A stretch of 39,059 nt of DNA from Muribaculaceae bacterium (lineage in GTDB: Bacteria; Bacteroidota; Bacteroidia; Bacteroidales; Muribaculaceae). Shown piece by piece: positions 6,337 to 37,121 of this stretch. The translations under genes were made by a program, and so were the position numbers. The notes under the pieces were generated by a model that saw only the letters and a list, made by a program, of their open reading frames with translations, was not told the origin of the DNA and made no database searches. The stretch is from contig JAFTDD010000023.1 in assembly GCA_017454355.1 (NCBI GenBank), positions 1 to 39,059 on the forward strand, given 5' to 3'. Each line of letters begins with the position of its first letter. Within the stretch, counting starts at the first letter, position 1.

Positions 6337-9332
6337 TTTTTCAAATTTTGATAGATGATAGAGTGGATGTTGCTACGGGCGCTCACTCGGCCGAAGGCTC
6401 GGTTGTCACGTGTGGGACACACCCGGTTGCTCATAAAGATGTAAATCATGTCGTTGTCGGGGTCTACCCAGAAACTCGTGCCGGTGAAACCGGTGTGACC
6501 GTAGACCGATGGCCCGGCCTCGGCGCAGGTGTTGCCGGCGTCCGGGTTGCCGATAACGGGCTTGTCAAATCCCAGGCCGCGGTGGCTGGTGAGGCTCTTC
6601 TCGGTGGTAAACACTTTGACTGTCGCCTCGCTCAAGAAGCGGTCGCCGCCGTAGGTGCCGCCGTTGAGCCACATTTGTAACAGTTTGGCCAGGTCGACGG
6701 CGGGCGAGAAGAGGCCGGCGTTGCCCTGCACACCCAGTGAGAACGCGCTCAGTTCGTCGTGGACGTAGCCGTGGACGTGCTGGCGACGCAGATAAGTGTC
6801 CACCTCGGTGGGCACGATTTGGCTCAGCGGGAAGTGGTCGGCGGCACGGTAGCACGTGCGCCACATGCCCAGTGGGGCAAAGAAATTCTTGCGGTCAAAA
6901 TTGTCGAGGCGCTCGCCGCTGATGCGCTGCACGGCATCGGCCAGCAGCGAGAAGTTGAGGCAACTGTAGCGGTAGCGCTTCTCAAGCAACTTCACGTTGT
7001 AGATGCCGTCCATCACGGCGCGGTAAGTCGCCTGACCACCGTAGAGGTCACGTGCTATGGCGGTGGGAAAGTCGGCGGTGGGCACCGCCGAGAGGATGTC
7101 GCGGCGCAGGCGGGCGCGGTCGTTGCCCCAGGCGCCATTCATCACCTTGATGTTATGGTTGGCGTCGCGTTGTCCGGTGATGAGACGTCCGCTATAGGAG
7201 GTGGTGTCCATCATCATCTCCCACATGCTCAGGCTTGGCGGCATACCGGTCTCGTGGAGAAGGAGTTCGCGGAAGGTGATGTGTCGCTTGTCGGGTCGCT
7301 GCAAGCCGGGGATATATTTTGAAGCCTCATCGTCGAGGGCGAAGCCGCCGTTGTCAAACACTTTCATAACGGCGCTGATGGTGCCGGTGGCCTTTGACAC
7401 CGATGCCAGGTCGTAGATTGAGCCTGTTGTCACCTGGGTGGAGGCATCGACAGCATGTCGTCCCCAAGCACCGTTGACGACCACCTTGCCGTGGCGAGCC
7501 ACCAGCACTTGGCAACCGGGGAAGGCGCCTTGCTCGATGCCGTAGCGTGCAACCGAGTCAATCTGCTGGAGCAGCCGGTTGTCGAAGCCCGCGGAGGCCG
7601 GCGAGGCGAAACCGAGGCGTGTTGCGGCGTAATGTGTGCCTGCGCCCACCCGCAGGGTCTTGCCACCGCCAACGGGGCGCACCGTCACGGGTAGCGTGCC
7701 GCGAGCCGCGTTGCCGGCGAAAATTGTCTGCACCGCCAGGTCAACGGCTGTGGGGGCGGCGTCGTAGGTCAGCACCAGCGCGCGCGCGTCGTGGAGTGCG
7801 CTGCCGTAGTGCCGTATGTTGTATGGCGTGGCCGTGATGACGAGTGCCACGTTCTTGACGCGCGAGGTGAGGCCGCGCGCCAGCGCGCGCGTCGCTGCCT
7901 CATCGTCGGTCGCCACGGCGATGACCGTGGTAAAGCCGCCGCTCTTGAGGGCTGCGGTGGCTGCATGCAGCGACTCGTCGTCCTGCACGTGCAACGTTAG
8001 GTCGACGCGCGCATAGTCGCTCACGCGGCTCGAGACAGCCGGCGAGCGTCGCCCGATGGTCACCACGGCAATCTTCTGGCGCTCGAGGTGGCTCACGGGT
8101 AGCAAGTTCTTGCTGTTTTTAGCGATGGTGATTGATGCCGCCACCAGTTCGTCCTGCAAGGCGAGCGTTTCGGGCGTCTGCAGTCGCTGCTTGAGATTGG
8201 TGGTGTCGATTGGTGCCGTGTCGCGCGTCAGTCCGAGCGCGTATTTGAAGCGCAGTTGCTTGCGGCAACTCGCGTCCACCTGTTCCTGCGTGACACGTCC
8301 GGCGGCGATTGCCGCCATCACGGCCTTGATGTCTTGCTCCACCTGTTCGGGCATGAGTAGCACATCGTTGCCGGCCACCAGCGCCTCGACGGCCGCGCTA
8401 CTGCCTGCCGGCACGGCGTCAGCGGCCCCGTGCATGCCGAGGGCGTCGGTGAAAATCAAGCCTTCAAAACCCAGTTGCCCCTTTAGCAAGTCGGTCACGC
8501 AGCGACGGCTGAAGGTTGTTGGCGCCACGTCCTTGTCGATGGCCGGTACGTTGAGGTGGGCCACCATCACTCCGCCGAGGCCCGCGTCAAAGTATCGGCG
8601 GAACGGCACTAACTCGCACGTGTTGAGTTCGCGCATCGACTTCTTGATAGTTGGCAGCATCTTGTGGCTGTCGTCGCTGGTGGCGCCGTGGCCGGGGAAG
8701 TGCTTCGACACCGACAACACTCCGCCGTCTTCCAGTCCGCGCGCGTAGGCGGCCGCGTGGGCGGCGACGGCCTCCGGGCTTTCGCCAAACGAGCGGTTGT
8801 CGAGCGTTGGCTTGTCGGGCGTGTCGTTGACGTCCACCACCGGCGCGAAGTCAACGTGGATGCCCAGCAGCCGGCATTGCCTCGCTGTCTCACGTCCGTA
8901 GGCGTAGAGCAGTTTCTCATCGTTGATGGCGCCGAGCCGCAGGTTTTTGGCAAACGGTTTCAACTCATGCAGGCGCATGGCCACGCCCCATTCGCCATCG
9001 ATGGCCACAAGCATCGGCACTCGCGCCGCGGCTCGCAACCGGTTGGTGGCGGCCACTTGGGCAGCGATGGTGCTCTCGTGGTAAATCACGCCGCCCACCT
9101 GCAGGGAAGCAGCCATGCGGTCGATAATAGCGTTGGTGGCCGCATCGCCCTTGGGCGTGACGGCTACCATCATGAGTTGGGCCACACGTTGCTCGGGAGA
9201 GAGTGTGCTCATCACGCTATCCACCCATCGCTCCATAGCGGCGCTGTCGGTGGCACGAAGCAGCGACGGTGTCGTCGCCGACGCCGCCAGCCATGTCGCC
9301 ACGGCAATTGCAAGAGTCAAAATCCGTTTCAT
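6333..9332 (-). CDS. GH3 (NagZ-type) beta-N-acetylhexosaminidase fused to a serine hydrolase
   Basis: A 999-residue secreted fusion with signal peptide MKRILTLAIAVATWLAASAT. Residues about 35-370 are a NagZ-like GH3 domain: KHFPGHG (210-216), catalytic DSH (221-223) and nucleophile Asp296 in IFTDALGM. A GH3 C-terminal-type region follows to about 590. Residues about 600-999 are a class C beta-lactamase/penicillin-binding-type serine hydrolase with SVSK (S644, K647) and GHTG (H946). At the YxN position the sequence is Y789-S-C, so the usual Asn is replaced by Cys. This two-domain arrangement is known in Bacteroidetes and fits peptidoglycan fragment cleavage. It overlaps the TlpA-like gene, and its upstream gap is entirely the CTAG array. 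Confidence 0.93.
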   Translation of the reverse strand: MKRILTLAIAVATWLAASATTPSLLRATDSAAMERWVDSVMSTLSPEQRVAQLMMVAVTPKGDAATNAIIDRMAASLQVGGVIYHESTIAAQVAATNRLRAAARVPMLVAIDGEWGVAMRLHELKPFAKNLRLGAINDEKLLYAYGRETARQCRLLGIHVDFAPVVDVNDTPDKPTLDNRSFGESPEAVAAHAAAYARGLEDGGVLSVSKHFPGHGATSDDSHKMLPTIKKSMRELNTCELVPFRRYFDAGLGGVMVAHLNVPAIDKDVAPTTFSRRCVTDLLKGQLGFEGLIFTDALGMHGAADAVPAGSSAAVEALVAGNDVLLMPEQVEQDIKAVMAAIAAGRVTQEQVDASCRKQLRFKYALGLTRDTAPIDTTNLKQRLQTPETLALQDELVAASITIAKNSKNLLPVSHLERQKIAVVTIGRRSPAVSSRVSDYARVDLTLHVQDDESLHAATAALKSGGFTTVIAVATDDEAATRALARGLTSRVKNVALVITATPYNIRHYGSALHDARALVLTYDAAPTAVDLAVQTIFAGNAARGTLPVTVRPVGGGKTLRVGAGTHYAATRLGFASPASAGFDNRLLQQIDSVARYGIEQGAFPGCQVLVARHGKVVVNGAWGRHAVDASTQVTTGSIYDLASVSKATGTISAVMKVFDNGGFALDDEASKYIPGLQRPDKRHITFRELLLHETGMPPSLSMWEMMMDTTSYSGRLITGQRDANHNIKVMNGAWGNDRARLRRDILSAVPTADFPTAIARDLYGGQATYRAVMDGIYNVKLLEKRYRYSCLNFSLLADAVQRISGERLDNFDRKNFFAPLGMWRTCYRAADHFPLSQIVPTEVDTYLRRQHVHGYVHDELSAFSLGVQGNAGLFSPAVDLAKLLQMWLNGGTYGGDRFLSEATVKVFTTEKSLTSHRGLGFDKPVIGNPDAGNTCAEAGPSVYGHTGFTGTSFWVDPDNDMIYIFMSNRVCPTRDNRAFGRVSARSNIHSIIYQNLKK

Positions 9333-9344
9333 GTTGTTTGGTTC

Positions 9345-9450
9345 CTAGAATTTCTAGAATTCCTAGGGTTCCTAGAATTCCTAGGGTTTCTAGAATTCCT
9401 AGGGTTTCTAGATTATCTAGGGTTTCTAGATTGTTGTCTAGAAACCCTAG
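9345..9450. repeat. CTAG array: 12 copies at 9-bp period, ending in a perfect palindrome
   Basis: CTAG starts at 9345, 9354, 9363, 9372, 9381, 9390, 9399, 9408, 9417, 9426, 9438 and 9447. Ten copies are exactly 9 bp apart, with units alternating between CTAGAATTC and CTAGGGTTT. The last part is a perfect inverted repeat with 14-bp arms (9417-9430 and 9437-9450) around TTGTTG. It starts 10 bp past the 5'-nucleotidase stop and fills the gap to the GH3 gene. Confidence 0.9.
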
Positions 9451-9460
9451 TTGTTAAAAC

Positions 9461-10984
9461 TTACTTTTTCACCATGCGAGGTTTCTCGTCGGTGGTGAGG
9501 TGCTTGCCGGCTTTACCCATCTCGCGGGCATAGTTGATGATGTGGTCGCCGTACTTGACCTCGTCGGTGAAGATGACGTTGGCGCGGGTGAGCGGCGTCA
9601 TATAGTCGCCTCCACCGCTTAGGTAGTTGATTGTAGCCACCTTGTAGCGCTTTTTTGGGTCAATCTTCTTGCCCTTGAGTTTGGCGCTTGTCACCTTGCC
9701 GGCCTCGTTGAAGGTGACCTCCATACCACGGCTCAGGGCATCGCCTCCACGGCCGGCCATCACGTCGAGGGCCTCAAGGAGGTCTTTGCCGATGATGTCG
9801 AGCACCACGTAACGGTTGTCGAAGGGGAACATAGACATGAGTAACCCCTCGGTGATGGTGCCACGCGGCATAGAGGTGCGGATGCCGCCCTTATTCATAA
9901 TCACCAGGTCAACATTCTTGATGCCGCTGATTTTGCCGATGATGTCAAGCGTGACATCGCACACCCAGTTTTGGCTGGCATCGTTGCCGTTCTTCCACTC
10001 CATGTCGCTGACGCACAACGGGTTGTTCATCAGAGAGTCGACTCCGGCACGGTAGTGGTTCAGCCAGTTGTCCATCGCGACATACTTGCGTGCAGCGTTG
10101 TCCCATTTGTCGTTGACGGCTTCGTGCTTATAACTCACCTTGCCGGTCTCGAGGTCGAGGTCATAGATGCCCACGAGCTTGCCGCTCTTGCCGTTCTGTC
10201 CCACGACAATCAGTTTGCCGTCGGCGTTGGGGATGCGGTCAAACTCGCTGTCGGGCTTGATGACGGTGTGGCTGTGACCGCCCACGACAAGGTCGATGTA
10301 GTGGCTGCGGCGGATGATGGTCGTGTCGTTGGGCTCGGTGGGGTCATAACTGTCGTAGCCGATGTGACTGATCATCACGGCGTAGTCCACCTTTTGGACC
10401 TCCTTGAGATATTTGGCGGTGGCGTCGGCCACATCGCTGCTGAGCAGGTAATGCATGCCCTCATAGTTCTTCTCGCCGATGAGGCCTTTGGGCGTGATGT
10501 TGATGCCGAAAAAGCCCACCTTCTTGTCGCCAAAGCGCATGATGCGGTAAGGCTGGAACATGCCCTCAAGCGGCGTGCCGCTCATGTCGTAGTTGGCGCT
10601 CAGGCGGGTGGCCTTCACGTTCTTGTAGAACTTGGCCAGGCTCTCAAGGCCGTTGTCAAACTCGTGATTGCCCAAGATAACCATGTCGTAACCTAGGCTA
10701 TCTATCAAAGCATACTCTACCTCGCCCTCATAGAGCGTGAAAAAGACGGAGCCCTGCACGGCGTCGCCAGCGTGCACCACGACGGTACCCTCGGGGTTGA
10801 GGGCGCGGTAGTGGTCGTAGATGGCGCGGCGGCGCGCCACGCCGCCTTGTCCGTCGCTGGCAGGCTCAATCTGGCTATGGGTGTCGTTGACGGCCACAAT
10901 GGTCACATGGTCGCCGGCCGGCGCGACCAGCCAAGCGGTAATGGCGAGCGTCGCCGCCATGATGGTTTTCATTGTCATTCTCAT
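9461..10984 (-). CDS. Secreted bifunctional metallophosphatase / 5'-nucleotidase
   Basis: 507 residues with an N-terminal signal (hydrophobic 8-22). The N-terminal metallophosphatase domain shows NDTHSQ (D34, H36), HAGD (D74), the two-metal motif GNHEFDNG (105-112) and VVGGHSHT. The C-terminal 5'-nucleotidase domain carries the substrate-site motifs NKGGIR and MFPFDNRY. It is the UshA/CD73 type that hydrolyses nucleotides to nucleosides and phosphate in the periplasm. Both domains are in one polypeptide, as in UshA. It shares strand with the GH3, TlpA and porin genes downstream but is separated by the CTAG array. Its upstream gap holds a GTTGAG-type palindrome. Confidence 0.93.
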   Translation of the reverse strand: MRMTMKTIMAATLAITAWLVAPAGDHVTIVAVNDTHSQIEPASDGQGGVARRRAIYDHYRALNPEGTVVVHAGDAVQGSVFFTLYEGEVEYALIDSLGYDMVILGNHEFDNGLESLAKFYKNVKATRLSANYDMSGTPLEGMFQPYRIMRFGDKKVGFFGINITPKGLIGEKNYEGMHYLLSSDVADATAKYLKEVQKVDYAVMISHIGYDSYDPTEPNDTTIIRRSHYIDLVVGGHSHTVIKPDSEFDRIPNADGKLIVVGQNGKSGKLVGIYDLDLETGKVSYKHEAVNDKWDNAARKYVAMDNWLNHYRAGVDSLMNNPLCVSDMEWKNGNDASQNWVCDVTLDIIGKISGIKNVDLVIMNKGGIRTSMPRGTITEGLLMSMFPFDNRYVVLDIIGKDLLEALDVMAGRGGDALSRGMEVTFNEAGKVTSAKLKGKKIDPKKRYKVATINYLSGGGDYMTPLTRANVIFTDEVKYGDHIINYAREMGKAGKHLTTDEKPRMVKK

Positions 10985-17121: not shown

Positions 17122-19401
17122 TTAACGGAGGTAGAGGCGGGCGGTTTTGAGGGTGCCGGTGGAAAGCAGACGCAAGGCTGTGACTTCGAGGTCGGTGCCG
17201 AGGTCGATAACAATCAGTTGGGGCAGGGAAGAGCCGGTCGCTGCTTGCCATCGAGTGCTCTCCTGGAGGTCGATCGCCTTGGTGGCGTTGTTGTTGCCGG
17301 CGGCAAAGTCCTCACTGTCGACGTAGTGGACGGTGTATCGCGACGGGTCGATGTCGTTGCCGTTGCTGTCGATGACGCGCACTTCGGCGATGGCGGGCGC
17401 ATCGCCTTCGTTCCATACTTGGGAACACTCGATGATGATGAGGCGGCCGAAGAGTGGTTTTGCCAACTCGAACGTTTGCCAGTTGTTGCCGGCCGCAATA
17501 TCCATCGTCATGGCCACGTCCCAGTCGTGGAGCACGGGGCGTGTGGCGGCGATAGTTGCCTCTGCTTTGCCCGGGCGGTCGAGTATGGGCTCTGCGAGGC
17601 CGGCAATGGTAGGTTCGCCTTCCGGACCAATGAGGTCAAGCACTACGACCTCATTCTCTCCCTCCTGCAACCAGCACCCCGGCAGGTAGAGCGTTTGCTG
17701 CGGCCCGATGTGCCAGAATCGGCCCAACGCGTGGCCATTGACCCATACCTGCCCCTTGCCCCAATGGCTGAGATCGAGGAACGTGTCGCCAATGCGGTGC
17801 AGGCTGTCGGTGACAAATGTGCCGCGGTAGTATCCGGCCTTGCCGGCGGGCGCGTCTTGTTGTGTATTGAGGAAGGCGTTTGCGGCAACACTATACTCAT
17901 CGGGTAGCAACGCGATGTCCCAGTCGGTGACAGCCCTGCCATTGACTGAAACATCGCCGATGATGCCCTTGTGGTCGTTAATGCCGCGACCGAAGTTGAT
18001 GCGTCCCATTCCCTCCACAAGCAACTCGAGGCGGGCTTCGGCAGCGTGTGGCGGCAGGCGCAGCGTCGTGGTACCCTTGGCGCGGTTGAGCGTGCCCACC
18101 GGCCGACCGTCAAGCGTTACGCGAGCCCAGTCGTGGCAGCCGGGCACGTCGAGCGTGGTGCTGTCGGTGGCTGCATCGGCGAGTGTGGCGGTGTAGATTG
18201 CGGCTCCGAAGCCCATATCCATCTGCTCAAACGTTAGGGGACGCTCGCTGTGAATCGAGCCGGTGGCGGCAGCGTGTAGTGGCGCGTGGTCGGAGAGACG
18301 CAGCGCCGGTAGGGAGACTATCGGATGCGGCGGTTCGGGCACTGCCTCTATCATAGCCAATGGGTTGTCGCGCAGTAGCACGCCGCGCAGCCGATCAAAT
18401 TTGTCGGTGGGCAGACCCCACTCGTTGATAGGGGCATCGTAGTCGTAACTCGTCACATCGGGCGCGTAGCCCGGACTGTTGGCTCCGGCCCAGTGGCCAA
18501 AGGATGTGCCGCCGTGGGTCATATAGAGCGAGAAGGAGATGCCGCCCTCGAGCATGTGACTGACGCCGGCCACCATCTCATCGGCGGGTCGTGTCTCGTG
18601 GGCCGCACCCCATTTGTCGAACCACCCGCTCCAGTATTCCGAGCACATCAGCGGCGTGCGTGGCCGCAACTCGCGCAGGCGCGCAAACTCCTTGTCGACG
18701 TCGCTGCCGGTGCCAAAGTTCATTGTCCACAGCAAGTCCGGCAGGGCATTTTGCTCAAAATTGCTTGACCAGTCGCATTGGAAGAGTGTCACACCATTAA
18801 AGCCCGCCTGGCGGACGATGTCACGCACGGCGGCCACGTACTCGGGGTCGGTGCCGTAGGAGCCCATCTCGTTCTCGACCTGCACCATGATGATAGGGCC
18901 ACCGTTGTTGATGGTGAGCGGCGCCAGTTGGCGGCCGACCTCGTTCTCAAAGCGGCGAACATGATCGATGAAGCGTTTGTCGCAACTGCGCAAGGGTATA
19001 TCGGCCTTGAGCAACCACCACGGCAGTCCACCCATTTCCCACTCGGCGCACACGTATGGCTCGGGCCTGACGATAACCCACATGCCGTGCCTTTGTGCCA
19101 GGCGGCAAAATTCGGCCACATCGTTCTGGCCGGTGAAGTCAAATGTCCCCTCAACCTGCTCGTGGACGTTCCAAAAAACATAAAGGCAAATCGTGTTCAT
19201 GCCCAACGCTTTGCACATTTTGATACGGTGCTCCCAGTAGGGTCGCGGAATGCGCGGGTAGTGGAGTTCGGCAGCCTTGATGATGAACGGCTGTCCGTCG
19301 AGGCGGAACACACCGCCCACGGTGTCGGCCTCAAACGTGTGGGCGTTGGTGCCCAGCGCGATAACTATCGCCGCTATCAATAACTTGAGTCGTGAAATCA
19401 T
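17122..19401 (-). CDS. GH35 beta-galactosidase, secreted
   Basis: 759 residues with signal peptide (MISRLKLLIAAIVIALGTNA). The GH35 barrel (about 28-350) begins with FRLDGQPFIIKAAELHYPRI and WEHRIKMCKALGMNT. It carries the acid/base Glu178 in VQVENEMGSYG and nucleophile Glu255 in CSEYWSGWFD. Beta-sandwich domains follow, with GKGQVWVNGHALGRFWHIGP and YLPGCWLQEGENEVV typical of the family. Residues about 620-759 look like an F5/8-type (discoidin) carbohydrate-binding domain. It removes terminal beta-galactose from host or diet glycans in the periplasm or at the surface. No SusC/D pair lies nearby, so it is outside a classical PUL. The promoter at 19424-19455 is excellent. Confidence 0.95.
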   Translation of the reverse strand: MISRLKLLIAAIVIALGTNAHTFEADTVGGVFRLDGQPFIIKAAELHYPRIPRPYWEHRIKMCKALGMNTICLYVFWNVHEQVEGTFDFTGQNDVAEFCRLAQRHGMWVIVRPEPYVCAEWEMGGLPWWLLKADIPLRSCDKRFIDHVRRFENEVGRQLAPLTINNGGPIIMVQVENEMGSYGTDPEYVAAVRDIVRQAGFNGVTLFQCDWSSNFEQNALPDLLWTMNFGTGSDVDKEFARLRELRPRTPLMCSEYWSGWFDKWGAAHETRPADEMVAGVSHMLEGGISFSLYMTHGGTSFGHWAGANSPGYAPDVTSYDYDAPINEWGLPTDKFDRLRGVLLRDNPLAMIEAVPEPPHPIVSLPALRLSDHAPLHAAATGSIHSERPLTFEQMDMGFGAAIYTATLADAATDSTTLDVPGCHDWARVTLDGRPVGTLNRAKGTTTLRLPPHAAEARLELLVEGMGRINFGRGINDHKGIIGDVSVNGRAVTDWDIALLPDEYSVAANAFLNTQQDAPAGKAGYYRGTFVTDSLHRIGDTFLDLSHWGKGQVWVNGHALGRFWHIGPQQTLYLPGCWLQEGENEVVVLDLIGPEGEPTIAGLAEPILDRPGKAEATIAATRPVLHDWDVAMTMDIAAGNNWQTFELAKPLFGRLIIIECSQVWNEGDAPAIAEVRVIDSNGNDIDPSRYTVHYVDSEDFAAGNNNATKAIDLQESTRWQAATGSSLPQLIVIDLGTDLEVTALRLLSTGTLKTARLYLR

Positions 19402-19570: not shown

Positions 19571-19786
19571 AGTAACCGCTTATTATTAACATGACTATCA
19601 ATCACTTTTACATCAAAAACTTGAGTCTTTTATCCTTTGTAGGGCCTGGCCTTGGCCTGGCCATTTTACGGATTTTTCGTGAGAATAATAGACGGAAATA
19701 GACGGAAATAGACGAGAGGAATTTTAATCTTGGGCAGGCAGACAACGAGTTGCGGATTTTAGGCTTATCACAAATCTTTCCAATTA

Positions 19787-19915: not shown

Positions 19916-19953
19916 TTTGTAATACTCCTTAATTCAGCTGGGCTCGATATTTC

Positions 19954-20112
19954 CTCTCGAAAATTCTCGAGAATTTCCGAAAAATTTTAATCTTATCCCG
20001 TGAATTTCTGTGAATTATCGTGAAATTAATTGTAGATAAAACACAGCAAATAAAATATTTACGAAATTTCACGAAAATTCACGGGAGATTAATTTTCGAA
20101 AATTCTCGTGAG
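19954..20112. repeat. Nested palindrome with CG every 10 bp (HflX 3' side)
   Basis: CG dinucleotides start at 19958, 19968, 19978 and 19999, (TG at 20009), 20019 on the left arm, then 20062, 20072, 20082 and 20097, 20107 on the right. Left-arm blocks TCGAGAATTTCCGAAAA and CCCGTGAATTT are inverted on the right as TTTTCGAAAATTCTCG and AAATTCACGGG. It lies 43 bp past the HflX stop. Confidence 0.85.
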
Positions 20113-20154
20113 CTCTCAAGGTTGTGGATTTTTGGATTCTGTGAATTGGGGCGT

Positions 20155-30375: not shown

Positions 30376-30402
30376 TTACGGGAATTCTCGAGAATTCTCG
30401 GG
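30376..30402. repeat. Short CG-phased palindrome 3' of ispF
   Basis: CG at 30379, 30389 and 30399 (10-bp period) around the perfect palindrome GAATTCTCGAGAATTC (30382-30397), 24 bp past the ispF stop. Confidence 0.75.
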
Positions 30403-30942: not shown

Positions 30943-31005
30943 TCCCGTGAATTTTCGTGCATTTCCGAAATAATTATTCACGAAAATTCACGAAAATTCA
31001 CGGGG
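30943..31005. repeat. CG-phased palindrome between porV and ispF
   Basis: CG at 30946, 30956, 30966 (left) and 30981, 30991, 31001 (right), all 10 bp apart within each arm. CCCGTGAATTTTCGTG on the left is mirrored by CACGAAAATTCACGGG on the right. Confidence 0.88.
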
Positions 31006-31073: not shown

Positions 31074-32261
31074 TCAACGGCGGCCGAAGAGGTTGCGGAT
31101 GCCCTCCATGTCGAAACTCAAGGTGAAGCGCAACGTCTGGTCGAGCGGACTGTTTTGGGCAGTGGCAATCATATAGGCGGCATCCAGTTTGATGACGCTC
31201 AGCGCGAAACCGGCGCCGAAACCGAAGTACTGGCGGTTGCCTTTCCACTTGTTCTCGTGGTAGTAGCCGCCGCGCAGGAAGAATTGCTGGTTGTAGACAT
31301 ACTCGGCGCCAAGCGACCACGTAATCTCTCTCAACTCCTCCTTGAAGCCGCCGGGCGCGTCGCTGAACGACTTGAAGATGCCCGTGATTGACGACATGTC
31401 TTTCCACTTTTGCAGCGCGTCGTTATACTTCTCGGTGTCCTCATAGTCGCTCAAACGCGGCTTGACGGGCACAAGCAACTTGTTGGCTTCGGCCGAGATT
31501 GTCAGGTTGTGGTAGTCGGCCAGCGGGAAGGTGAACGCCGTACCCAGTTTGAGGTTAGCCGGCAGGAAAGCGGGGTCGTTGCCGCCGTTGTAACTCACCT
31601 TGGAGCCGATGTTGCTGATGTTGAAACCGAGCGTCCATTGACATTCGTTGCGGCCCACCATGGGGTAGGTGCACAGGTAGCCGTTGATGTCGGCGGCAAA
31701 GGCCGACGAGCCCTTGGTCTTGTCGCCGGTGTTCATGTCGCTGAAGCCCAAGTCGCTGTAGATGTAGCGCAAGGCGACGCCCATCGAGAATTTCTCGCTC
31801 AACTTGCGAGAATAGCCCACATCGACCGACATCTCAAACGGGCGTATGCTCGCCAGTGTGGCGCCGCTGCCGTCGTCGTGAGTTTGGATTTCGCCCAACG
31901 AGAAGTAGCGCAGCGAGGCGCTGATGGCCTGGTTGTCGCTGCTGCCCAACTTGAGGTAGCCCGAGAGGTTGGCCAGATAGATGTCGTTGACAATCTTGCG
32001 CAGCCACGGTGTGTAACTGAGCGAGATGCCGGCCTTGCTCTCGATGAAAGCATACTTTGACGAATTCCAGAACTGCGAGTTAACGTCCGGATCGGTGGCC
32101 GCGCCTTGGTCGCCCATCGAGGCACCGCGCGCGTCAGGTGTGATGCTCAACGAGGTCACGCCGGTGGTGACCGGATTGAACTCGTTGTCCTTGATATCAT
32201 CGGCAATGGCGGCGGTTGTTACCGCCACCATCGCTATTGCCGTTAAAAAAGTTCGTTTCAT
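31074..32261 (-). CDS. porV: Type IX secretion system outer membrane protein PorV
   Basis: 395 residues with signal peptide (MKRTFLTAIAMVAVTTAAIA) and a beta-barrel pattern ending in Phe-rich strands. The N-terminal segment VTTGVTSLSITPDARGASMGDQGAATDPDVNSQFWNS-type region (about 32-69) is the PorV signature, as are SLSYTPWLRKIVNDIYLANLSGY and the long loop near PVKPRLSDYEDTEKYND. PorV (LptO) is a FadL-like barrel that receives CTD-bearing cargo from the T9SS translocon and hands it to the PorU sortase. It sits downstream of two CTD- or cohesin-bearing secreted protein genes on the same strand. porU is not in the window. Confidence 0.93.
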   Translation of the reverse strand: MKRTFLTAIAMVAVTTAAIADDIKDNEFNPVTTGVTSLSITPDARGASMGDQGAATDPDVNSQFWNSSKYAFIESKAGISLSYTPWLRKIVNDIYLANLSGYLKLGSSDNQAISASLRYFSLGEIQTHDDGSGATLASIRPFEMSVDVGYSRKLSEKFSMGVALRYIYSDLGFSDMNTGDKTKGSSAFAADINGYLCTYPMVGRNECQWTLGFNISNIGSKVSYNGGNDPAFLPANLKLGTAFTFPLADYHNLTISAEANKLLVPVKPRLSDYEDTEKYNDALQKWKDMSSITGIFKSFSDAPGGFKEELREITWSLGAEYVYNQQFFLRGGYYHENKWKGNRQYFGFGAGFALSVIKLDAAYMIATAQNSPLDQTLRFTLSFDMEGIRNLFGRR

Positions 32262-35687: not shown

Positions 35688-35747
35688 TTTCGAAATTTTT
35701 TTCTCTCGAAAATTATCGACAACCTTAATTCCTCAACTCAATATTTA

Positions 35748-35913
35748 TCTCTCGAAAATTTCCGAAAATTTCCGAAAAATATTATATCTCGTAAATTTTC
35801 GTAAATCTACGTAAATTCAATTTGGTGATAATATTCTGTTGATAAAATATTTACGATAATTTACGCAAATTTACGAGAAAATTATTTTCGAGAATTTTCG
35901 GAAATTTTCGTGA
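35748..35913. repeat. Double nested palindrome with CG triplets at 10-bp period
   Basis: CG starts at 35753, 35763, 35773 and 35790, 35800, 35810 on the left; 35854, 35864, 35874 and 35889, 35899, 35909 on the right. Outer blocks use CGAAAATTTC-type units and inner blocks CGTAAATTTT-type units, each pairing only with its own kind. It lies 20 bp past the alcohol dehydrogenase stop. No gene lies in the 323-bp gap. Confidence 0.92.
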
Positions 35914-35933
35914 GCATATTCAATGTTGCGGGT

Positions 35934-37121
35934 TCAATGGTTGGCGGCGCGATAGACGGCCTCCATCTCTTTGGGACCCATCTTCACCATCGAGCCGATG
36001 GTGAACGTGCCGCCGCGGCTGCAACGATCCACCATGCGAGCAATCTCACCGTCGGTCACCGGCCGCCCAAGCAACTCAACTATGCCCACCGGCATGCCAA
36101 TGCTGTGGAAGAAGTCCTCGACAGCCTCGATGCTGGCAATCGACATGGCGTGAGGATCTTTGCCCGGCTCAACGCCCATCACGCGCTCGGCAAACCCGGC
36201 GAAGCGCGCCTCGTGGCCCGGCAACACAAACCGTGCCCAACTGCCCCACAGCGCGGCCAGTCCAGCGCCATGTGTCACGCCAAACTCGGCGCTCAACTCA
36301 TGCTCCAGGCGGTGGGTGGCAAAGTCTTTCTCGTAGCCGCACTCCGTCAGGTCGTTGTGCGACAGGCTGCCGGCCCACATCAACTGCGCGCGGTGCTGGT
36401 AGTTCTCCGGATCGCGAAGCACGATGGTCGCACTCTCCATCACCGTGCGCAACAGTGCCTCGGCGATAGCGTCGGTCAGCGTCATGCCGTTAAAGCGCGT
36501 GAAGTAGCGCTCCATGGTGTGCATCATGATGTCCGTCGCGCCGGCGGCCGTCTGATAGGCCGGCAGCGTGAAGGTGCGCTCGGGGTTCATGATGGCAAAC
36601 CGGCAACGGCACAAGTCGCTGTTGATGCCGCGTTTGACCAGTGTGTCGTCGCGCGTAATCACACACGAACTACTCATCTCGCTGCCTGCCGCCGGAATGG
36701 TCAGTACACAGCCCAAAGGCACCGTGGCGGTGGGCACTGCCTTCCCCTCCCAAAAGTCCCACACATCGCCGGCGGTGTAGGGCACACCGTAGGCGATGGC
36801 TTTGGCACTGTCAATCACGCTACCGCCGCCGATAGCCAGAATGAAGTCCACACCCTCGGCACGGCACAACTCAACGCCGCGGCGCACCATGCTCAGCAGC
36901 GGGTTGGGCACCACACCGCCAAGTTCCACGGTCGCTATCCCGGCCTGATTGAGCAGCAAGCGCATCTTGTCCAGCAGCCCGCTGCGCACCGCGCTGCCGC
37001 CGCCGTAGTGCAGCAGCACACGGCTGCCGCCATTTTGCTTCACAAGCGAGGCCACTTGCTCCTCGCTCTCGCGCCCGAACACCACACGGGTGGGCGCGTA
37101 ATAATTGAAATCCTTAAACAT
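35934..37121 (-). CDS. Iron-containing alcohol dehydrogenase (YqhD/BDH type)
   Basis: 395 residues. The N-terminus FNYYAPTRVVFG and the cofactor motif GGGSVIDSAKA (98-108) fit NAD(P)H-dependent group III dehydrogenases. Metal ligands are at the expected places: D197, H201, H270 and H284 (GATDIMMH, ATHRLEHEL, VTHGAG). It reduces short-chain or toxic aldehydes in the cytoplasm. Its ATG overlaps the stop of the CotH gene by one base (TAATG), so it is translationally coupled to a secreted protein, an odd pairing. A CG-phased palindrome follows its stop. Confidence 0.93.
   Translation of the reverse strand: MFKDFNYYAPTRVVFGRESEEQVASLVKQNGGSRVLLHYGGGSAVRSGLLDKMRLLLNQAGIATVELGGVVPNPLLSMVRRGVELCRAEGVDFILAIGGGSVIDSAKAIAYGVPYTAGDVWDFWEGKAVPTATVPLGCVLTIPAAGSEMSSSCVITRDDTLVKRGINSDLCRCRFAIMNPERTFTLPAYQTAAGATDIMMHTMERYFTRFNGMTLTDAIAEALLRTVMESATIVLRDPENYQHRAQLMWAGSLSHNDLTECGYEKDFATHRLEHELSAEFGVTHGAGLAALWGSWARFVLPGHEARFAGFAERVMGVEPGKDPHAMSIASIEAVEDFFHSIGMPVGIVELLGRPVTDGEIARMVDRCSRGGTFTIGSMVKMGPKEMEAVYRAANH

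Follow-up and report, generated by a model that had tools for sequence, protein, structure and literature searches.

The stretch of DNA analysed here (the window) comprises 39,059 nucleotides of a contig from a Muribaculaceae bacterium, whose genome, G000, is an incomplete draft, as is that of the relative G016. On the minus strand of the window lies an iron-containing alcohol dehydrogenase gene (35934..37121; PF00465, E 1.8e-43), the 3' end of which meets a 217-bp element at 35723..35939 (plus strand). No gene was called inside this element, and it holds no transposase reading frame. Its interior is made of arms, each of which, in the family, repeats a 10-bp unit inward over two to four CG steps; the unit is CG-NNN-ATT followed by two free bases. 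We distinguish flavours by the letters NNN: A (AAA), B (TAA), C (TGA) and D (TCT), with AGA, GAA, ATA and ACA counted as A. When aligned with 14 other copies, the window element is a whole copy with an outer flavour A and an inner flavour B, bounded by a left terminal inverted repeat, CCTTAATTCCTCAAC (35723..35737, plus strand; 1 mismatch to the consensus), and by a degenerate right one (35925..35939, minus strand; 3 mismatches) that overlaps the dehydrogenase stop codon. An extra partial flavour-A array with two CG steps sits immediately to its left (35707..35718, plus strand).

An earlier note on this DNA had described twelve CG dinucleotides in four triplets at exact 10-bp steps, and these are real: they fall at 35753/63/73, 35790/800/810, 35854/64/74 and 35889/99/909, and there are no further CG dinucleotides within 35748-35913. 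When these 166 bases were shuffled 5000 times with their dinucleotides preserved, no shuffle had more than 2 such triplets and the mean was 0.05, as against the four observed. They define an outer left arm of flavour AAA (35753..35774, plus strand; CG at 35753/35763/35773), an inner left arm of flavour TAA (35790..35811, plus strand; CG at 35790/35800/35810) and, read on the minus strand, an inner right arm of flavour TAA (35854..35875) and an outer right arm of flavour AAA (35889..35910). The left-side units are those given originally, CGAAAATTTC in the outer arm and CGTAAATTTT in the inner one, and the arms do form two nested palindromes, with inverted arms at 35749-35788/35875-35914 (83%) and 35787-35816/35849-35878 (87%). 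As RNA, 35700-35960 folds with -79.4 kcal/mol (z -7.9), and none of 200 shuffles folded as well. Two parts of the original description need amending. While phasing and nesting stand, the feature is larger than was supposed and extends to its terminal inverted repeats, 35723-35737 on the left and the degenerate 35925-35939 on the right; and although palindromic, the arms complement each other imperfectly, for the two bases that separate successive 8-bp words usually fail to pair with their counterparts on the other side.

Related arrays occur elsewhere in the window. A second family copy, with an outer flavour A, an inner flavour C and a decayed left inner arm, lies at 19927..20135 (plus strand), close to the right part of a flavour-D copy (19693..19763, minus strand) that consists of a TCT array and an exact terminal repeat at 19749-19763. 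A flavour-C palindrome without terminal repeats stands alone at 30946..31003 and is near-identical at the homologous place in G016, and a one-sided array, of AGA followed by one last CG step, is found near a gene 3' end at 30379..30400 (minus strand). Two genes near these other copies, for a family 35 beta-galactosidase (17122-19401) and the type IX secretion protein PorV (31074-32261), are ordinary for Bacteroidales.

The double palindrome represents a short mobile non-coding element of which many copies are scattered through G000 and two close relatives. The window element yields 91 BLAST matches in its own genome with both strands counted, a figure that counts many places twice, the query being palindromic. 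Contig ends truncate many of the copies, which is what one expects where repeats interrupt an assembly, and this is the practical effect of the family. The family's terminal repeats are CCTWAAWTCCGCAAC; 35 fuller copies, once aligned, share the ends CCTTAATTCCGCAACTC... and ...GTTGCGGATTTTAGG, and the sequence outside these is unrelated. With at most one mismatch, the terminal repeat occurs 103 times, as against once for the reversed pattern. In the part of G000 examined, perfect 5-bp target duplications flank 9 of the 20 copies that have both ends and flanks (shuffled mean 0.6), and a perfect 5-bp repeat was seen at none of the four bounded G016 copies having both flanks. At C77:24192-24444 in G000, a 253-bp D-B copy with ATTAG on both sides splits a Y1 transposase gene, the two parts of which match profile positions 4-70 and 62-121. 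At C82:49126-49189 in the same genome, a 64-bp copy that has no array and little beyond the two end repeats interrupts a flavour-C palindrome at its midpoint, with the target duplication GTAAA; since this array-less copy still has a 5-bp duplication, the end repeats suffice. The inner palindromes gave, at the best offsets for a target duplication, agreements of only 2-3 bp, which AT-rich symmetry can explain.

No clean empty sites were found: the five element-absent G016 sites that were aligned carry other changes. At the dehydrogenase locus, G016 has the same gene without the element, but the left neighbour differs too, so this is an absence and not a clean empty site. The suggestion that the palindrome belongs to the alcohol dehydrogenase transcript is not supported, as many other genomic sites carry the element and G016 lacks it beside the homologous gene. 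The copy in the window is an old one, with a worn right end and no target duplication.

What might have moved these elements is suggested by their ends. Terminal repeats of the form CCTNAAATCCGCA are shared by the family with IS1380 insertion sequences and their MITEs, and the duplications in 9 of 20 copies have a length that fits the IS1380 family, for which we take 4-5 bp to be typical. In G000, family-type ends flank two pieces of an IS1380 transposase (C37:7079-8015; NF033539, E 6.6e-14 and 3.7e-10), so that the genome contains a same-ended transposase remnant, itself without a target duplication. Of 19 IS1380 loci inspected in further genomes of the Bacteroidales, 4 have similar ends on both sides, one of the four with a perfect 5-bp repeat, GATAA; the ends of the other IS1380 loci differ. 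Unlike IS1380 insertion sequences, the element has no transposase, and its nested phased foldback interior was not seen in the IS1380 loci examined. An intact IS1380 gene was not found in either draft, where NF033539 gave two sub-cut-off matches in G000 and none in G016 (PF13701, tried as the transposase profile, matched nothing in either genome and was replaced by NF033539). An orphan MITE can, however, outlive its IS, and the missing gene thus lowers the case for current mobility but not that for descent. Given the shared ends, the 5-bp duplications, the dispersed copies, the insertion into a transposase gene and the similar ends at IS1380 genes, the element, its interior a foldback, has probably moved as an IS1380-type MITE. 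The best-shown part of the mechanism is the copying, in which the ends were most likely the substrate of an IS1380-type transposase; such a DDE transposase would act in trans and spread copies.

The interior of the family follows a regular plan. We detected 205 capped arms in the 680 kb of G000 examined, of which 187 have one of four NNN in the first unit (TGA 64, TAA 57, AAA 38 and TCT 28), and the NNN of first and second unit are the same in 169 of the 205. When repeated-word arrays are sorted by step, 206 have a step of 10 bp, four of 8 bp, three of 9 bp and none of 11-13 bp. Nor is the phasing a product of chance across the genome: a looser unit pattern, CGNNNATTNNCGNNNATTNNCG, occurs 567 times on both strands of G000 against 0 for the reversed pattern, and in relatives the phase is kept while the unit sequence varies between loci, which is the outcome that the earlier note had proposed to look for. 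The step is nevertheless not universal in the family, since two bounded G000 copies (C4:11726-11890 and C17:7326-7513) have an inner palindrome of CGTAAAAT words with irregular 9/10/12-bp steps.

Architecturally, an outer palindrome of flavour A or D carries in its middle an inner palindrome of flavour B, C or D. Among 30 distinct elements with at least three detected arrays, 17 have two arms per side, and in all 17 outer matches outer and inner matches inner, in five combinations (AB 10, AC 2, DB 2, DC 2 and AD 1); the remaining 13, with other arm numbers, include two flavour conflicts (C11:31331 and one in G016 C78) and one over-extended element (C63). This result uses a changed method, in which arms are ranked from the outside within terminal-repeat bounds. 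The cap pairing that it replaced had found no flavour agreement beyond shuffles (13/36 vs 11.1; in G016, 5/12 vs 3.6) because it paired neighbouring arms of different nests. Comparison of the copies shows that flavours are exchanged as whole modules and that arms gain or lose whole 10-bp units. In each of two orthologous pairs of palindromes, the G000 and G016 members differ by one 10-bp unit exactly, and in the orthologous array at C22:6567 a CG step has been lost in G000. The distances from outer to inner arrays cluster at 25/35/45 and 38/48/58, and in some copies the arms are unequal between sides. We also note runs of one-sided B, C and D arrays in a single orientation (G000 C21:295-1853, locus L127; G016 C68:8874-10387, locus L145), which have T-rich spacers, are not palindromes and adjoin very long genes (at least 2033 and at least 2866 aa). 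Between the arrays of L145 lie an HTH_3 gene (9071-9394) and a small gene with no Pfam match (9378-9704) that look like an antitoxin-toxin pair, a presumed pairing.

Across 101 genomes of the genus, the three-unit pattern occurs 210 times in G000, 83 times in G016 and 10 times in G493, once in each of 8 more genomes and in none of the other 90, so that arrays are repeated in 3 of 101. Across the order, 12 of 393 genomes including G000 have any match, and beyond G000 only G324 (8) and G386 (5) have more than one. Judged from the match list, G386 has a plain tandem array. G324, from another Bacteroidales family, contains dispersed hairpins (L308, L320, L322 and L324) with units CGCAGATT or CGCGGATT at a 10-bp step. 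In the four loci, read by eye, CAGATT words mirror the units on the other side at about the same step, and there may thus be a fifth flavour, CAG, in that family. A scan of genome contigs returned at least 45 stretches, several of which (Streptomyces and Chthoniobacteraceae MAG records among them) proved by eye to be plain tandem repeats, not palindromes. Phage and plasmid collections, in which near records are possibly absent, gave no match at blastn sensitivity; a viral scan found TRA words in one contig, whose tandem repeat did not look mirrored, and the CAG flavour in five contigs.

The earlier note knew of no named family with this design, and our comparison divides that answer. The ends are of a known kind, that of IS1380-type MITEs; for the interior, with its arms of four interchangeable 8-letter words one turn apart, we found no name either, and no description of a nested, flavoured design was recognised in the open-licence literature as represented by titles and abstract openings. 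Besides IS1380 elements, three known systems come closest. BrickBuilt of Porphyromonas gingivalis (PMC4596501) is likewise a dispersed, intergenic Bacteroidales MITE with an internal tandem repeat, but it has 23-bp repeats with inverted-repeat ends, in place of the 10-bp units, mirrored nested arms and four exchangeable flavours seen here. The foldback transposon Tm1 of root-knot nematodes (PMC3169594) has a 13-15-bp unit and 9-bp target duplications. Its likeness is architectural only and consists in long inverted repeats made of short tandem repeats, in a number that differs from copy to copy and from one end to the other; the present family, too, has inverted repeats with variable numbers of tandem units (2-4 CG steps per arm), but it is bacterial and has nested flavours, whereas Tm1 is eukaryotic, un-nested and built of one unit type. 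REP and BIME sequences, the third system, are taken up below.

How the interior is conserved bears on what it may be for. Fifteen copies selected for being of A-B type (11 from G000 and 4 from G016) were aligned, and their mean pairwise diversity rises from 0.043 in the 8-bp core through 0.163 in the terminal repeat and 0.239 in the spacer to 0.331 at the free bases, counts that are not independent because the copies share ancestry. In the second unit, which was selected only by its CG, the commonest base of any core position is present in at least 82% of arms. Across the palindrome (23 elements, 79 mirrored unit pairs), core letters agree at 0.93 and free bases at 0.27, as against 0.41 for the latter when shuffled, figures that shared descent inflates. 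With the core kept and the free bases mismatched, what is constrained is less a perfect stem than a directional word repeated at a fixed step, a pattern that favours a putative protein-binding array.

The strongest rival is a pure slippage origin of the phase. On this account the element is an IS1380-type MITE in which the phase has no function, the arms being short 10-bp tandem repeats that expand and contract by replication slippage and the palindromes having arisen by inverted duplication and template switching. In its favour are the orthologues that differ by entire 10-bp units and the clustering of distances at 10-bp intervals, and a published Bacteroidales MITE carries a 23-bp minisatellite (PMC4596501). 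Slippage with conversion should, however, homogenise whole units, whereas here the free bases are the most variable part and the core the least; the mismatch of free bases across the palindrome points the same way, if less strongly in view of shared ancestry. The same 10-bp period in all four flavours and the absence of 11-13-bp steps also speak against it. We regard this account as a serious possibility, though not the one that we would choose.

A less probable explanation, which we consider unlikely, is that the palindromes are REP-like and are spread by Y1 (RAYT/IS200-type) transposases, with the IS1380-type ends merely carrying some of them along. REP and BIME sequences are also dispersed intergenic bacterial palindromes, (PMC3733652), and IS200-type genes are present in the genome: Y1_Tnp has 10 matches in G000 and 9 in G016, where one IS200-like gene (L145:10874-11320; PF01797, E 2.5e-20) lies 0.6 kb from an array. 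Many palindromes, moreover, are found by themselves, with neither terminal repeats nor a clear target duplication, as single-strand insertion predicts. Yet an AT-rich CG triplet lies within 1 kb of none of the five unsplit Y1 genes examined in G000 (the nearest at 1.0 kb) and of one of two in G016, and while 55 of 61 genomes of the genus have Y1 genes, only 3 of 101 have multicopy arrays. Y1 transposases are thus common in the genus and mostly distant from arrays, which makes a REP system less likely. REPs as published (PMC3733652) measure 20-40 bp and bear on one end an unpaired tag, GTAG or CGTC; the family is much longer, has 10-bp array arms and no consistently adjacent Y1 gene, and the copies inspected showed neither tag at an end, CGTC occurring inside flavour D words.

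We think it improbable that the arrays are a structured RNA or bidirectional terminator, maintained for a hairpin at gene 3' ends, in spite of the strong fold and of arms that match across flavours and so preserve the stem. By crude gene calls, on stretches that were in part selected because they contain copies, array clusters are intergenic in 66 of 67 cases, and the nearest gene end is a 3' end (31) more often than a 5' end (15). Gaps with arrays are, however, not enriched for convergent genes (6/46, 13%, vs 11% of gap length), the stem mismatches at the free bases, and none of 42 consensus pairs in the 15 A-B copies had changed on both sides so as to keep the pair. For the putative cruciform or RNA stem raised in the earlier note, this lack of paired changes likewise stands against the strong fold. 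Rfam gave no family at the gathering score; its 15 matches at E up to 1 fall far below, are mostly to microRNA families and were taken as chance, the query being an AT-rich hairpin. Curved DNA from phased A-tracts is the least probable reading, and a very doubtful one, as flavour A resembles the classical curved-DNA repeat GAAAATTTTC but flavours C (AATT only) and D (CGTCTATT) hold the 10-bp phase without comparable A-tracts.

We return to an IS1380-type MITE with a nested foldback interior whose 8-bp core serves as a recognition word, a combined reading that we consider likely, the recognition being its less certain part. The core would be recognised by a DNA-binding protein, either the transposase or an accessory factor, sitting once per helical turn on each arm, and the NNN letters could set which protein or paralogue binds. 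Slippage would supply the unit-sized changes and selection for binding would maintain the phase, and intergenic copies, which lie more often by gene 3' ends, might as a side effect add a long hairpin to transcripts that run through them. More speculatively, and with a good deal of reserve, the phased CG-NNN-ATT words might form a modular addressing code of bacterial mobile DNA, in which dedicated proteins discriminate the NNN and the modules AAA, TAA, TGA and TCT, with CAG in the other Bacteroidales family, are swapped from element to element with pairing partner and phase kept.

MITEs are common; what is odd about this one is an interior more conserved than the ends that a transposase needs. 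If the phased words are binding sites, the family would provide a natural variant set (four flavours, five combinations and hundreds of arms) with which to find the binder and to learn how three differing letters can determine its specificity. Otherwise, it would be a clean case of a tandem repeat that holds a one-turn phase through slippage.
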